In this document: piece after piece, positions 1-54,126 of the stretch
Layout of the letters: the number at the start of each line of letters is the position of its first letter
Numbering within the stretch: the first letter of the stretch is position 1
From: an uncultured Barnesiella sp.
Lineage (GTDB): Bacteria > Bacteroidota > Bacteroidia > Bacteroidales > Barnesiellaceae_A
Direction: 5' to 3'
Assembly: GCA_944321085.1 (NCBI GenBank)
Contig: CALUJY010000005.1
Coordinates: forward strand, 104,123-168,122
DNA length: 64,000 nt
The notes under the pieces: model-generated
What the model was told of the DNA's origin: nothing
The model's input: the letters and a program-made list of their open reading frames with translations, nothing else
The model's database searches: none
Made by a program: the position numbers and the translations under genes

Positions 1-425
1 ACCCGTGCAACAACATAGACAATGAGATTGCATTACACAATATGCTTATCCAACTCTATAACAAGGCTTATAAGGAGAATACGGATGAATACTACTCCAA
101 GATTATAGATTTGGCAGAATACAGCAAACTTCATATTCTTGGATTGCTTGATAATGAGCAATACATACCATATTACATACATAACCTGACTTCTTTAGTA
201 GATTTATATATGTGTGCCAACCGTCATGCAGAAGCCATACGGACAGGCAAGGAGCTGTGCGAGTTTACCAAGGACAAAGACAATAGCATACATATCAGGT
301 GTGTCCTGCTATTGGGAAGCCTTTATAAAGAGTTAAATATGACAGAACAACAGGACAGTTGCATCAACAGCGTCAAGCATCTGCCTGAATTTGAAGCAAT
401 ATATGATGATTATATGAAGCAATAA
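1..425 (+). CDS. Hypothetical helical repeat protein, 5' end outside window
   Basis: The reading frame is open to the left edge (frame beginning at base 3) and ends at the TAA at 423-425. The first in-window ATG is at 42, but codons before it are also open, so the gene probably begins outside the window. The visible part is almost wholly alpha-helical in character. It has an alternation of aromatic and small residues like TPR or SEL1-type repeats, for example around residues 45-110 counted from the ATG at 42. No catalytic motif, signal peptide or membrane segment is visible. It lies upstream of a lipoprotein in the AT-rich accessory stretch. I do not recognise a specific family; a TPR-like scaffold protein is an inference from composition only. 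Confidence 0.5.
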   Translation, partial: PCNNIDNEIALHNMLIQLYNKAYKENTDEYYSKIIDLAEYSKLHILGLLDNEQYIPYYIHNLTSLVDLYMCANRHAEAIRTGKELCEFTKDKDNSIHIRCVLLLGSLYKELNMTEQQDSCINSVKHLPEFEAIYDDYMKQ

Positions 426-500
426 AAGTTGTCTGATTTTTCTTCCTGCCACTCTTAAAAGAAGAAATGAGATAAGTTGAATTTTAGACAGTAAAACATC

Positions 501-1337
501 ATGAAAATAGTTTATATAGTTACTATGTTTTTAATTGCAATGGCTTTCCTTAACCTTACAGGATGCAACAGGGCAAGTAAGTCAAACGATGAAAGACAAA
601 GAGATATTGCCGTTGAAAAGGAAATTGCCAATTTCTGGGGGCATGGTACACGTACTTTTATTTCAGACAATTTACCAAACGGTTATAAGGTTTCTGTTTT
701 CTACAAAGAAAAGAACAACTTGTGCATTTGGCATTTCCAGCGAGGAGACAGCATTGACAGATGTATTGCTGGACACAGGTTGCCATTGTCACTAATTTTT
801 GAATGCAATGCTGCTCTTTATGATGAGAATTTGGATAAGCATTATGAGCCACTTGATACCACTCTGACACTAACCATTGATATTCCTATTGTCAAACAAT
901 TGGATATGGACGCTGCCGATGGCGACATCTGCTTCATGGATGTTAATTTTGACGGTCAAGAAGAGTTTATAATAGCCCATCCGGGATATAACCGTACATA
1001 TTATGCCTGTTTTGATTTGGTGAATGGAGATGATTCTAATAGTATCTGCCCCGGCTTTTTAACATCTATGGATGGTGAAGTGTACGGTAACTTGGTTGGC
1101 GGGTTATGTGGGAAAACAGAATTTGACCATAAAAAGAAAATTATTCATATCACAGAGCAAATAGGTTGCTGTACGAAGGTTGAAACTTGGGCAAAACCCG
1201 GACTTGGAGTATTTGGAGAGGCCAAAGTGTTTAAGAAAATAAAAAGTGAACTATGGGCAAATAGAGAAAAACACATCGTGACATATCAATTAGTGAACGA
1301 TACCTTAAAACAAATATCGCATGAAATTATAAAATGA
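501..1337 (+). CDS. Hypothetical lipoprotein with VCBS-like DxNxDG motif
   Basis: The 278-residue protein has an N-terminal hydrophobic stretch ending in a lipobox (L-T-G-C, Cys22), so it should be lipid-anchored in the envelope. Around residue 150 a DVNFDGQEEFII segment resembles the calcium-loop motif of VCBS/FG-GAP-like repeats seen in many uncharacterised Bacteroidota lipoproteins. The C-terminal half is rich in beta-type sequence. No enzyme motif is seen. It sits alone between two other unrecognised genes in the accessory stretch, and the AT-rich third codon positions differ from the core genes further right, consistent with transfer. The function is unknown. Confidence 0.7.
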   Translation: MKIVYIVTMFLIAMAFLNLTGCNRASKSNDERQRDIAVEKEIANFWGHGTRTFISDNLPNGYKVSVFYKEKNNLCIWHFQRGDSIDRCIAGHRLPLSLIFECNAALYDENLDKHYEPLDTTLTLTIDIPIVKQLDMDAADGDICFMDVNFDGQEEFIIAHPGYNRTYYACFDLVNGDDSNSICPGFLTSMDGEVYGNLVGGLCGKTEFDHKKKIIHITEQIGCCTKVETWAKPGLGVFGEAKVFKKIKSELWANREKHIVTYQLVNDTLKQISHEIIK

Positions 1338-1406
1338 TGAAAAGACCTTTTTAGAAGAAAGTCCATTTTGTAGGGAGAAATAGAAAAAGGTACTCGTTAG
1401 AAAATA
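1335..1406 (+). repeat. Imperfect direct repeat, copy 1 (before the 122-aa gene)
   Basis: Read by eye, this spacer shares a run of blocks with 1789-1850: a lysine-stop junction AAAATGA, then CTTTTT, AAGAA, TCCATTTT, TAGAAAAA, GT.CTC.TTA and AAATA in the same order with small gaps. Roughly three quarters of positions match. It is not an integron attC site by the usual core motifs. Confidence 0.4.
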
Positions 1407-1426
1407 ACAACAGATAAACATTAGAT

Positions 1427-1795
1427 ATGAAAGTCTTTTCATTCTTATATAAACACTTTTGGAGAATAAACAGGAATACATCATTAGGTAAGTTGAAAAC
1501 TGGCTTGCCGCAGACACTTGTAAGTGCCCCATCGGACATCTTCTTGTACATTTTCTTAGACGAGAAGATACACTTGCCATTTCATGTAGAAAGCATCCCA
1601 AGTAAAACTTACAACATCACAATTCGTAGGGTTAAAGGCTCTTCTGTAATAGAGGAACATCCTGCAGACCTTTATTATCTGCATCATTTGGATGAATTGC
1701 TGGAAAGTGAGGGAGTTATGGTCGAAAATGGCAAATGGACTGTGATTGAATGTGAAAAGAAACCTGCAATATGCCCAAAGAGAAACAGAAAATGA
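1427..1795 (+). CDS. Hypothetical protein, 122 aa, bracketed by imperfect direct repeats
   Basis: The protein is small and basic (C-terminus rich in Lys and Arg), with no signal peptide, no membrane segment and no motif I recognise. The start at 1427 is the first ATG of the frame and follows an A-rich leader. The flanks are unusual: the roughly 60 bases after the stop of the preceding gene and the roughly 60 bases after this stop resemble each other (see repeat entries), as if the gene were a cassette or arose next to a duplicated spacer. Codon use is AT-rich like its neighbours. It could be a real accessory gene; no function can be assigned. Confidence 0.5.
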   Translation: MKVFSFLYKHFWRINRNTSLGKLKTGLPQTLVSAPSDIFLYIFLDEKIHLPFHVESIPSKTYNITIRRVKGSSVIEEHPADLYYLHHLDELLESEGVMVENGKWTVIECEKKPAICPKRNRK

Positions 1796-1850
1796 CTTTT
1801 TCAAGAATAATCCATTTTATAAAAGGATGGTAGAAAAAAGTTCTCATTAA
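1789..1850 (+). repeat. Imperfect direct repeat, copy 2 (after the 122-aa gene)
   Basis: Partner of 1335-1406, with the same ordered blocks. It begins at the stop codon of the 122-aa gene and ends just before the promoter of the MNT-HEPN cassette. Confidence 0.4.
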
Positions 1851-1876
1851 ATAGCATTATTATAGCGCAACTTTAC

Positions 1877-1884
1877 TATCTTTG
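1877..1884 (+). promoter_or_regulatory. Bacteroidota -7 element (TATCTTTG) of the MNT-HEPN cassette
   Basis: The octamer matches TAnnTTTG exactly and lies 20 bases before the ATG at 1905, which supports that start. No TTTG box is present at the expected -33 position, so expression may be weak or activator-dependent. Confidence 0.6.
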
Positions 1885-1904
1885 CATTATAGGTAAGTTC
1901 ATTT

Positions 1905-2204
1905 ATGAAGTTGATAGAAACCAACATACAGAAGATTGCAGCTTTGTGCAAGAAGTACAAGGTAAACAAGTTGTTTGTGTTCGGCTCTATTCTTACCAAC
2001 CGTTTCAACGACAATAGCGATGTGGACTTGGTAGTTTCTTTCAATAAAGCAGAGGTAAGCGACTATTTCGATAATTACTTTGATTTCAAATACGCTTTGG
2101 AGGAATTGTTTGGCAGGGAAGTGGACTTGTTGGAAGAACAGACTATAAAGAATCCATATTTGAAAAAGAATGTGGACACAACAAAAGCATTGATATATGG
2201 ATGA
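1905..2204 (+). CDS. mntA: MNT-domain nucleotidyltransferase antitoxin (MntA-like)
   Basis: This 99-residue minimal nucleotidyltransferase carries the full MntA signature GSX10DXD: Gly27-Ser28, then Asp39 and Asp41 as metal ligands. In characterised HEPN-MNT pairs (Shewanella MntA-HepT, for instance) such a protein silences the HEPN RNase by adding AMP to a tyrosine in its RX4HXY motif. That tyrosine is present in the next gene. The stop codon overlaps the start of the HEPN gene by 8 bases, so the two are translationally coupled. The start at 1905 is supported by the TATCTTTG element 20 bases upstream. Assignment to the family is firm; the antitoxin role is inferred from the pairing. Confidence 0.88.
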   Translation: MKLIETNIQKIAALCKKYKVNKLFVFGSILTNRFNDNSDVDLVVSFNKAEVSDYFDNYFDFKYALEELFGREVDLLEEQTIKNPYLKKNVDTTKALIYG

Positions 2205-2538
2205 TTTGATAAAGAAGCACTTGCAGGACATTCTGACTGCCATTGAAGAGATAGAAAGTTTCTTTGGTGACAAGCCTAAGCTGTTTGATGATTTTTACAG
2301 CAATCTCTGCCTTAGACGTGCCATTGAACGAAACATAGAGATTATAGGTGAAGCCATGAACAGAATCTTAAAGACAGACAGAAACATATCTATCACCAAT
2401 TCACGCAAAATAGTGGACGCAAGAAACTATATCATTCATGGATATGACAGCTTATCGGCTGATATTCTTTGGAGCATGGTAATCAATCATCTGCCAAGAC
2501 TAAAAAATGAAGTAGTGGCTTTATTGGATAATGAATGA
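2197..2538 (+). CDS. hepT: HEPN-domain RNase toxin (HepT-like)
   Basis: This 113-residue all-helical protein has the HepT active-site motif RX4HXY intact at Arg76, His81 and Tyr83. The preceding helix, with R-N-I-E-I-I-G-E-A around residues 45-53, is also typical of the family. Known HepT proteins are dimeric metal-independent RNases; the tyrosine is the site modified by the cognate MNT enzyme. It overlaps the MNT gene before it and a second MNT gene after it, by 8 bases each (start and stop interlocked as ATGGATGA and ATGAATGA). The motif argues for an active toxin. The RNA target cannot be told from sequence. Confidence 0.88.
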   Translation: MDDLIKKHLQDILTAIEEIESFFGDKPKLFDDFYSNLCLRRAIERNIEIIGEAMNRILKTDRNISITNSRKIVDARNYIIHGYDSLSADILWSMVINHLPRLKNEVVALLDNE

Positions 2539-2836
2539 AATGCCTGTTAATATAGAGAAAGCGATTGAAATTGCGAAAGAATACAAGGATTTGGTCGCAG
2601 AACATTTGCCTCTTAAAGCTTTATACCTTTATGGCTCATACAGCAAAGGCAACCATACAGAGGACAGCGACATTGCTGTTGTGGTGGAACGAATGAGCGA
2701 TGATTACTTTGAAGATACTCCATTACTGTGGAAACTGAAACGTAAGATAAGCAATCTTATAGAGCCTGTTCTACTTACAGAGGACACAAATAATCCTCTC
2801 TATGCAGACATTCTCAAAACGGGAATACTGATATAA
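2531..2836 (+). CDS. Second MNT-domain protein, catalytic Asp missing
   Basis: This 101-residue nucleotidyltransferase-fold protein keeps Gly35-Ser36 and the first metal ligand Asp47 but reads D-I-A where family members read D-I-D followed by Ile/Val and Ala. The sequence is as expected if one GACATT unit (Asp-Ile) had been lost from a tandem pair, removing the second catalytic Asp in frame (about 2669-2677). The rest of the family pattern is intact: a VVVE strand, a long helix from about residue 58, and E-P-V-L-L near residue 79. It probably folds but may not transfer nucleotides; a structural or accessory antitoxin role is possible. It overlaps the HEPN gene by 8 bases and ends the cassette. 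Confidence 0.8.
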   Translation: MNEMPVNIEKAIEIAKEYKDLVAEHLPLKALYLYGSYSKGNHTEDSDIAVVVERMSDDYFEDTPLLWKLKRKISNLIEPVLLTEDTNNPLYADILKTGILI

Positions 2837-2918
2837 ACAGGAATATAGAGAACCTATCCAATATAGGGCAACTATATCTATATGAGATAAGTAATACAAT
2901 TATTAACAATTACGGATT

Positions 2919-2954
2919 GTGTAAACCGAGGTGTAAACTACGGTGAGTAAACAA
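2919..2954 (+). repeat. Three 12-bp direct repeats next to tRNA-Phe (candidate recombinase arm sites)
   Basis: Three head-to-tail 12-bp units begin at 2919, 2931 and 2943: GTGTAAACCGAG, GTGTAAACTACG and GTGAGTAAACAA. The third is the most diverged. They lie 40 bases before the tRNA-Phe gene at the edge of the accessory stretch. Closely spaced direct repeats beside a tRNA are typical of arm-type binding sites of tyrosine recombinases at the ends of integrated elements. No integrase gene is visible in the window. Confidence 0.5.
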
Positions 2955-2994
2955 TAAGATTACGAGTGATTTTTACAACTCCACTGATTCATAA

Positions 2995-3110
2995 GGTGCA
3001 ATAGCTCAGTTGGTTGCTTCCAAAAGTGAGCGTCAGCGAACTTTCGGAAGCCGAAGAAGAGCAAAGGACTGAAAATCCTTGTGTCCCCGGTTCGATTCCT
3101 GGTGGCACCA
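2995..3110 (+). tRNA. tRNA-Phe (GAA) interrupted by 43 nt in the D loop
   Basis: Acceptor, D-stem, anticodon arm (GAA at 3071-3073), T arm and discriminator A are all present and in order, but only if 43 nt (3015-3057) between the G-G-T of the D loop and the 3' strand of the D-stem are removed; the remainder is a normal 73-nt tRNA. The insert folds on itself: GCTTCC at 3016-3021 pairs with GGAAGC at 3046-3051, and the stem continues inward to a 12-nt loop with a single A.C mismatch. The acceptor has an A6.G67 mismatch where C6 would pair. CCA is not encoded. It may be a pseudogene, a disrupted attachment site, or a tRNA with an enlarged D arm. The anticodon assignment is firm; function is uncertain. 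Confidence 0.75.
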
Positions 3111-3114
3111 CAAG

Positions 3115-3149
3115 AAAACCCATATCGTCATCGACGATATGGGTTTTTT
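3115..3149 (+). terminator. Rho-independent terminator after tRNA-Phe
   Basis: A perfect 12-bp stem (ACCCATATCGTC / GACGATATGGGT) with a three-base loop is followed by six Ts. Confidence 0.9.
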
Positions 3150-3303
3150 GTATTGGCATTTGACTCATTTTGCGATGCTTGTTGTTTTATTTACGTAGTA
3201 TTCTGCTGTATAGTTATGTAATGGGTATATTTCGGGTAGAAATTTGCGATGATATGAGTTGTGGGTATGCCTCTGTCGGGTAGAACTATTATGATGAGCC
3301 GCT

Positions 3304-40968: not shown

Positions 40969-41055
40969 GGAAAGATGCCGGAGTGGTCGATCGGGACGGT
41001 CTCGAAAACCGTTGTACGGGTAACTGTACCGAGGGTTCGAATCCCTCTCTTTCCG
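40969..41055 (+). tRNA. tRNA-Ser (CGA)
   Basis: The 87-nt tRNA has a long variable arm (TGTACGGGTAACTGTACC region), 7-bp acceptor GGAAAGA / TCTTTCC, T loop TTCGAAT and anticodon loop CTCGAAA with CGA, reading UCG. Discriminator is G; CCA is not encoded. Confidence 0.96.
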
Positions 41056-41063
41056 CAAAGACA

Positions 41064-53727: not shown

Positions 53728-54126
53728 TGGTGGAGCTGGAGGGAATCGAACCCTCGTCCAAACGAGGAATCAATGTGCTTTCTACATGCTTATCTTCGCC
53801 TTTATTGTAGGGAGGCGGCAAGCGCGAAGCTGCCAACCGCAACCTTAGCCTCTTGAACTTCGCATAAGCATCGAGGCAATGCTTGTGCTATTCCCGATTT
53901 CCTTGCACCATCGGGTCGGAATGCTTCGGAACAACAGCTTCCGGATGATGTCTCGTTCCGTCACCTTGTGGCGGAATAAAGCTAATCTACTGTACTTCGA
54001 TTAAGCAGCGAGAGCGTAGTTGTTTTCGCCAATTAAATTTTCGATGCCTGAGATTATAGAGCCGGGACAACAAAGCTCTGCATGCTTACACACCGCTTCT
54101 GCCCGCTGTCAAAGCCAGTCAGCCCC
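53728..54126 (-). ncRNA. ssrA: Transfer-messenger RNA
   Basis: Read on the minus strand, the gene begins GGGGCTGACTGGCTTTGACA and ends with a T arm (GGTTCGATTCC) and CAGCTCCACCA, so CCA is encoded. The acceptor strands GGGGCTG and CAGCTCC pair with one G.U. About 100 nt in is the tag frame, reading G-E-N-N-Y-A-L-A-A then TAA, the Bacteroidota type degradation tag. Length is 399 nt, normal for a one-piece tmRNA. A TATCTTTG promoter element sits at 54178-54171, and a leader hairpin (CGCCGCAT with ATGCGGCG) lies between it and the mature 5' end. It releases ribosomes stalled on broken mRNAs together with SmpB. Confidence 0.97.

Follow-up and report, generated by a model that had tools for sequence, protein, structure and literature searches.

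At positions 2995 to 3110 of the window (plus strand; the window is the whole 64,000-nt stretch analysed here, C5:104123-168122 of genome G000), every part of a tRNA-Phe with anticodon GAA can be read, and 43 additional nucleotides sit in its D loop. Is this a tRNA gene, the remains of one, or a sequence that serves another purpose? The initial annotation, which had already listed all the tRNA-Phe elements, proposed either a pseudogene at an integration scar or a tRNA-Phe with an enlarged or processed D arm. Our reading agrees with its inventory: the order is GGTGCAA TA GCTC AGTTGGT, the 43 nt, then A GAGC AAAGGACTGAAAATCCTT and onwards, with the acceptor 3' strand TGGCACC at 3103-3109 and A73 at 3110. 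Six of the seven acceptor pairs can form, the exception being the A6.G67 mismatch recorded before. The extra nucleotides, delimited by comparison with an intact tRNA-Phe (3015-3057, plus strand), are indeed self-complementary. They contain the hairpin GCTTCC-A-AAAGT-GA-GC-GTCA-GC-GA-ACTTT-C-GGAAGC (3016-3051, plus strand), which folds as 6 bp, one A.C mismatch, 5 bp and an apex GC-GTCA-GC, that is, a 12-position stem with one mismatch and a GTCA loop closed by GC/GC. The predicted energy of the insert is -17.9 kcal/mol, compared with -8.7 +/- 2.5 in 1000 dinucleotide shuffles (z -3.7; 3 of the 1000 equal it), and the whole tRNA-like sequence of 117 nt has a fold z of -2.1. An alternative GAGC, suggested earlier as a possible competitor for the D-stem, does exist (3028-3031), but it lies in the hairpin apex, where long-type relatives also retain it, and its role is probably a structural one and not competition. 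ARAGORN, and Rfam at its gathering score, called no tRNA at 2995-3110, and a permissive Rfam scan gave a partial tRNA match of 23.5 bits, below the threshold (29 required).

The right junction of a tRNA-Phe-specific integrative element

A same-genome search found that the 54 bp at 3058-3111 (plus strand) occur twice more in G000 with 100% identity, at C5:97863-97916 and C18:4-57, and both further copies belong to intact tRNA-Phe genes. A search for a second, normal tRNA-Phe had been suggested at the outset; with two intact genes present, on C5 and C18, an enlarged-D-arm tRNA-Phe is not needed, and the host is independent of the tRNA-like copy in the window. The intact gene on C5 (C5:97843-97917; L005 5844-5918) precedes the tRNA-like copy by 9.3 kb in the same orientation, and the 3' side of this intact gene is occupied by ORFs with Arm-DNA-bind_5 and Phage_int_SAM_5 domains, followed by Phage_integrase in a separate ORF (Pfam). 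The exact 54-bp direct repeat, which comprises the att core and the tRNA 3' half and is identical to the repeat in this intact gene, together with the intact tRNA-Phe at the far end and the adjoining integrase, shows that the locus is attR, the right junction of a decayed, tRNA-Phe-specific integrative element. Neither the repeat nor the island had been noticed in the initial annotation.

The island as a whole spans C5:97918-107179 (9.3 kb), and its right-hand part occupies 1-3057 of the window (plus strand), including a 5' tRNA half and the hairpin. The 5' half (2995-3014, plus strand), identified from the sequence and by comparison with the host gene, supplies the acceptor 5' strand, the D-stem 5' strand and G18G19. 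It reads GGTGCAATAGCTCAGTTGGT at attR and GGTGCCATAGCTCAGATGGT in the host gene, the two differing positions reflecting its origin in the element. Neither the 5' half nor the hairpin was ever part of the host gene; both are element sequence. Thus the 2995-3110 sequence (plus strand) is composed of an element 5' half, a D-loop hairpin and a displaced host 3' half. The repeats are consistent with an exchange of DNA within the shared 54 bp by the element's tyrosine recombinase, which would have rebuilt the host tRNA-Phe at attL and displaced the host 3' half to attR, where it met the element's own 5' half. Downstream, the intrinsic terminator of the displaced host tRNA locus is found at 3115-3153 (plus strand) as a 15-bp perfect stem with a T run. 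Upstream, two TGTAAAC[CT] repeats 12 bp apart (2920-2939, plus strand) are putative arm-type sites of the integrase and are mirrored near attL (L005 6001); direct repeats TGTAAACC-N-TGTAAACC are located inside both island ends. In most relatives the motif TTATTAAC (2900-2907 in the window, plus strand) is located near -94, counted from the start of the tRNA-like sequence.

The tyrosine integrase of this island is split over two ORFs, so the island is probably unable to excise and move on its own. It is a decayed member with a split integrase, no DUF3871, uncharacterised cargo and a HEPN/MNT pair adjoining attR. The domain scan places an NTP_transf_2 (MNT-like) gene at 1905-2204 (L005 14028-14327) and a HepT-like HEPN gene at 2197-2538 (L005 14320-14661), and the last gene before attR is a putative second small nucleotidyltransferase-like ORF, named by reading, at 2531-2836 (all on the plus strand). 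The HEPN gene is thus flanked on both sides by small nucleotidyltransferase genes (1905-2836), a toxin-antitoxin-like cargo inside the island. As an explanation of the junction these genes were set aside, as they were not seen in other islands with scanned proteins. In congeners the island flanks were not found among the tRNA-Phe loci examined for an empty site. Elsewhere the window carries a tRNA-Ser(CGA) (40969-41056) and, on the minus strand, a tmRNA with the tag GENNYALAA (53728-54126).

A conserved, covarying hairpin in Bacteroidales elements

A comparison of the 43-nt segment with the tRNAs of other genomes had also been suggested, and it was productive. When genome contigs were scanned for the pattern, a single further exact match emerged, L015, in a Muribaculaceae MAG: its D-arm and hairpin are identical to those of the window, but the 3' half that follows is that of a tRNA-Met, and an intact tRNA-Met lies 2.5 kb away. 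Searching 397 genomes of this family at the DNA level yielded eight cases including the L015 genome, mostly divergent. In the 393 genomes of the window's order a pattern search with 3 mismatches found G000 alone, and a covariance model was required. The model (R1, the D-arm plus hairpin, built from nine sequences) gave 20 positive genomes out of 397 in the L015 family and six true positives among the 393, and added no case in a class-level sample of 40 genomes; weak matches in G349, G133 and G256 are ordinary tRNA-Val genes and were rejected. With about 830 Bacteroidales/Bacteroidia genomes searched in all, plus one cultured Bacteroides finegoldii that also has the hairpin junction, the total is 30 junctions in 27 genomes. 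Viral contigs contained no match to the exact 36-mer or to relaxed patterns, and BLASTN of the hairpin against phage and plasmid records gave nothing useful.

The 30 junctions have the insertion point and boundary letters in common, while their 3' halves derive from tRNA-Phe, Met, Lys(CTT), Lys(TTT) and Gly(CCC). At the opposite end, 12 of the 12 islands bounded on one contig have an intact tRNA of matching type, as do those of G412 and B. finegoldii, and in bounded islands the repeat between the tRNA end and attR is 40-65 bp. The elements measure 1.6-13 kb; complete ones encode a full-length integrase of ~400 aa adjoining attL and a member of a ~600-aa protein family; DUF3871 and a RadC/JAB protein are frequent as well. 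The ~600-aa protein (L060 4132-5979 and its kin) shows helicase-like motifs by eye (GIGAT, DESH, SAT, QxxGRFR) and has no match in Pfam, NCBIfam or PHROGs; a relaxase was considered and rejected, with no relaxase or Rep domain match in the same three collections. Some islands carry a second paralogue of it, on the opposite strand in two of them.

Several relatives show features of their own. The IMG/VR contig L096 (1-14396) ends in a direct terminal repeat and is likely the circular excised form of a distant DUF3871-carrying relative; it has the same ~600-aa gene and an integrase from another clade. At L066 18000-18060 (G428) the hairpin top is inverted relative to the near-identical L083 with the stem kept, a loop flipped in place. 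L073 (reverse-complement coordinates 67-232 and 1716-1780) has a tRNA-Gly(CCC) and, close to it, another partial 3' repeat, both left over from successive integrations into a single site. L119 and L120 (NZ_OY725919.1, NZ_OY725920.1) are labelled plasmids, yet they carry trpS, fumarase, rsmI and mutL and look like mislabelled chromosomal contigs of B. finegoldii.

Among 28 distinct sequences, in an alignment fitted to the covariance model, 91.6% of the cells are paired and 10 of the 13 stem pairs have changes on both sides (54 cells compared with 13.2 in shuffles, with the observed level reached in 0 of 500). The covariation score is 0.422, against 0.122 for shuffled and at most 0.092 for slid alignments, and an independent MAFFT alignment of the first nine sequences gave covariation of the same sign. 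The third stem pair, for example, occurs as A-U, U-A, C-G and G-C. The hairpin is therefore conserved and covarying across one clade of elements in gut Bacteroidales. In the integrase tree, the carriers with a sampled integrase fall in one clade with ~47-100% identity to the L060 integrase, the L082 integrase having a long branch and an unsettled placement. Distant relatives lack the 5' half and hairpin, among them G097, whose integrase is 26% identical to that of L060 and whose bounded attR is plain; a plain attR is also seen in a distant DUF3871 element. G544, a clade member with a broken integrase, also has a plain attR without the 5' half. Many other members of the integrase clade are beyond judgement, as their contigs end inside the element. 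That the hairpin has been retained over such integrase divergence, while target tRNAs changed, favours a function in the life cycle of the element itself.

What the folded module may do

A palindrome that is read as a duplex should lack strand bias. Among 24 distinct hairpins, there are 24 G.U pairs on the tRNA-sense strand and 7 on the antisense strand (a count over related sequences that ignores shared descent), and the sense strand folds better by a mean of 3.4 kcal/mol, in 19 of the 24 (Wilcoxon p 0.001, kinship ignored). DNA energies give a bias in the same direction (17/24, p 0.002), and the subfamily containing the window's copy has no strand bias taken alone. Taken over all hairpins, the bias indicates that one strand folds by itself, and the data support a hairpin that works as folded single-stranded nucleic acid of tRNA-sense orientation. 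In the spacer that precedes the tRNA-like sequence, a candidate for another conserved hairpin was rejected (mean z -0.7, no strand bias).

We consider the best overall explanation to be an attR of an integrative element with a conserved hairpin that most likely works as RNA, a reading that has about an even chance of being right as a whole. A Bacteroidetes-type promoter (TTG, 17-23 nt, TAnnTTT[AG]) is present in 13 of 30 upstream regions, compared with 1.0 expected from mononucleotide shuffles, and ten of the 13 are at -141 to -152 and directed at the tRNA-like sequence; in the same scan the window's own copy has no recognisable promoter upstream. A terminator-like hairpin with a T-run, brought by the element, was seen by eye just 3' of the attL tRNA in the loci inspected. 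In this picture, an element promoter ~145 nt upstream would drive transcription of the attP or attR region across the tRNA-like sequence as far as a terminator, and the folded D-arm would serve control of integration and excision of the element rather than translation. The recombination machinery, for its part, may read the region as an ordinary duplex of fixed length. More tentatively still, and with somewhat less than an even chance, the junctions may define a new class of attachment site: an integrase clade whose attP holds a tRNA-like gene with a conserved D-loop 'fifth arm', acting folded, either as a tRNA-shaped regulatory RNA produced by the element or as a strand-specific DNA hairpin, and controlling integration or excision.

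The chief competitor, possible though on balance unlikely, is that the tRNA-sense strand of attP folds as DNA, supercoil-extruded or single-stranded, and is put to use in recombination or replication, for instance to sense supercoiling, as a bend or as a single-strand initiation site. Loops of the form GNA or GNNA occur in 21 of 25 distinct hairpins, with apices GC-GNA-GC or GC-GNNA-GC and free middle letters, as in the published rule for extraordinarily stable DNA mini-hairpins (PMC4686876); this rule fits better than RNA loops do, GNRA accounting for just two of the four-nt loops, and the strand bias also holds under DNA energies. The location of the hairpin between arm sites and core, and the constant length of the tRNA-like 5' part, speak for DNA as well. 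From the tRNA start to the anticodon there are 74-77 or 65-66 nt in spite of differing hairpin and linker lengths, a constancy that suits a role in duplex-DNA spacing of core and arm sites; arm-to-core distances cluster near 115, 127 and 136 (three length classes, with two loci mis-parsed), which is suggestive of helical phasing. Against a DNA hairpin, there is no known factor or single-stranded stage, the ~600-aa protein having no relaxase or Rep match, the orientation matches transcription where a promoter is seen, and the richness in G.U is more RNA-like. We regard RNA as likelier than DNA, by a modest margin and without certainty.

The remaining explanations are improbable to differing degrees. 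Of the earlier proposal of a pseudogene at an integration scar, the scar holds, being the attR of the island, but the decay does not: the 43 nt as chance insertion or debris without function would suit the state of the window's island, the lack of an ARAGORN call and the two remaining tRNA-Phe genes, and is difficult to reconcile with 30 junctions that agree in insertion point, boundary letters and a covarying stem over an integrase clade with members down to ~47% identical. For the family this reading is disfavoured by the covariation and we hold it improbable; loss of function in the window's copy is possible. The other earlier proposal, that the cell makes a working tRNA-Phe with an enlarged or processed D arm (an extra-arm tRNA or a D-loop intron), fared worse and is very improbable, even though an outward arm could be accommodated at the insertion site, which follows G18G19 in the variable D-loop part, and the window's copy keeps most acceptor pairs and intact D, anticodon and T stems. 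The sequence is encoded by the element and not by the host, which has its two intact genes; the D-stem or anticodon-stem is flawed in L015, L042 and L043; and acceptor pairing ranges from 3 to 7 of 7 across junctions (the counts for L039 and L015 are too low, from an indel or mis-parse), falling to 3/7 and 4/7 in the otherwise complete elements L078 and L082. A hand count found no excess of pairing-preserving changes in the acceptor stem. Since pairing is poor in several complete elements, selection for a folded tRNA is not strong; what is selected is the D-arm plus hairpin, not the whole cloverleaf. On present evidence the insert cannot be called an intron. Still less credible is a mobile hairpin of REP/MITE type jumping into tRNA D loops: identical hairpins at a Phe junction (G000) and a Met junction (L015) would fit, but the hairpin is single-copy in G000, the model matches att junctions only, and the site, strand and integrase clade are always the same. 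An assembly or binning artefact is barely conceivable: the carriers are mostly draft or metagenome assemblies with broken contigs, yet there are 27 of them, several with the island bounded on one contig and one a cultured B. finegoldii.

Relation to known systems

What resembled a broken tRNA gene marks a widespread and so far uncharacterised family of integrative elements in Bacteroidales, with a structure-conserved nucleic-acid module inside the attachment site. Retention of the hairpin through changes of target tRNA poses a concrete, testable question on recombination control in tRNA-targeted elements, and there is a warning for tRNA annotation pipelines, by which such att junctions are missed or half-read. 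Among open-licence papers (subscription papers were outside the search) we found no description of a D-loop hairpin at attR, and its novelty is provisional.

tRNA 3' fragments at the attR of tRNA-targeted elements are a known phenomenon (PMC9897764). As in other tRNA-targeted islands with tyrosine recombinases, an intact tRNA is rebuilt at one end next to the integrase, and a direct repeat of 50-55 bp leaves a tRNA 3' fragment at the other; an ordinary attR has this fragment only, whereas here the element adds a 5' half and a D-loop hairpin. The DNA mini-hairpins mentioned above have a GNA or GNNA loop closed by at least 2 G-C pairs (PMC4686876), and the same apex is found here, but atop an 11-12 bp covarying stem in a tRNA-like context and with a putative extrusion as DNA. 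The present module shares an additional stem-loop in the tRNA fold with class II tRNAs and tRNA introns. However, class II tRNAs have their extra arm in the variable loop and tRNA introns are normally in the anticodon loop, whereas here the arm is in the D loop and its sequence is not that of a host tRNA gene. Integron attC sites are folded single-strand recombination sites and offer a further parallel in their covarying stem, a structure that outlives sequence, and their tie to a tyrosine recombinase; the hairpin described here differs in lying away from the presumed core and being flanked by arm-type duplex sites. The locus is therefore ordinary in outline, as the attR of a tRNA-targeted element, and unusual in the module that it carries.
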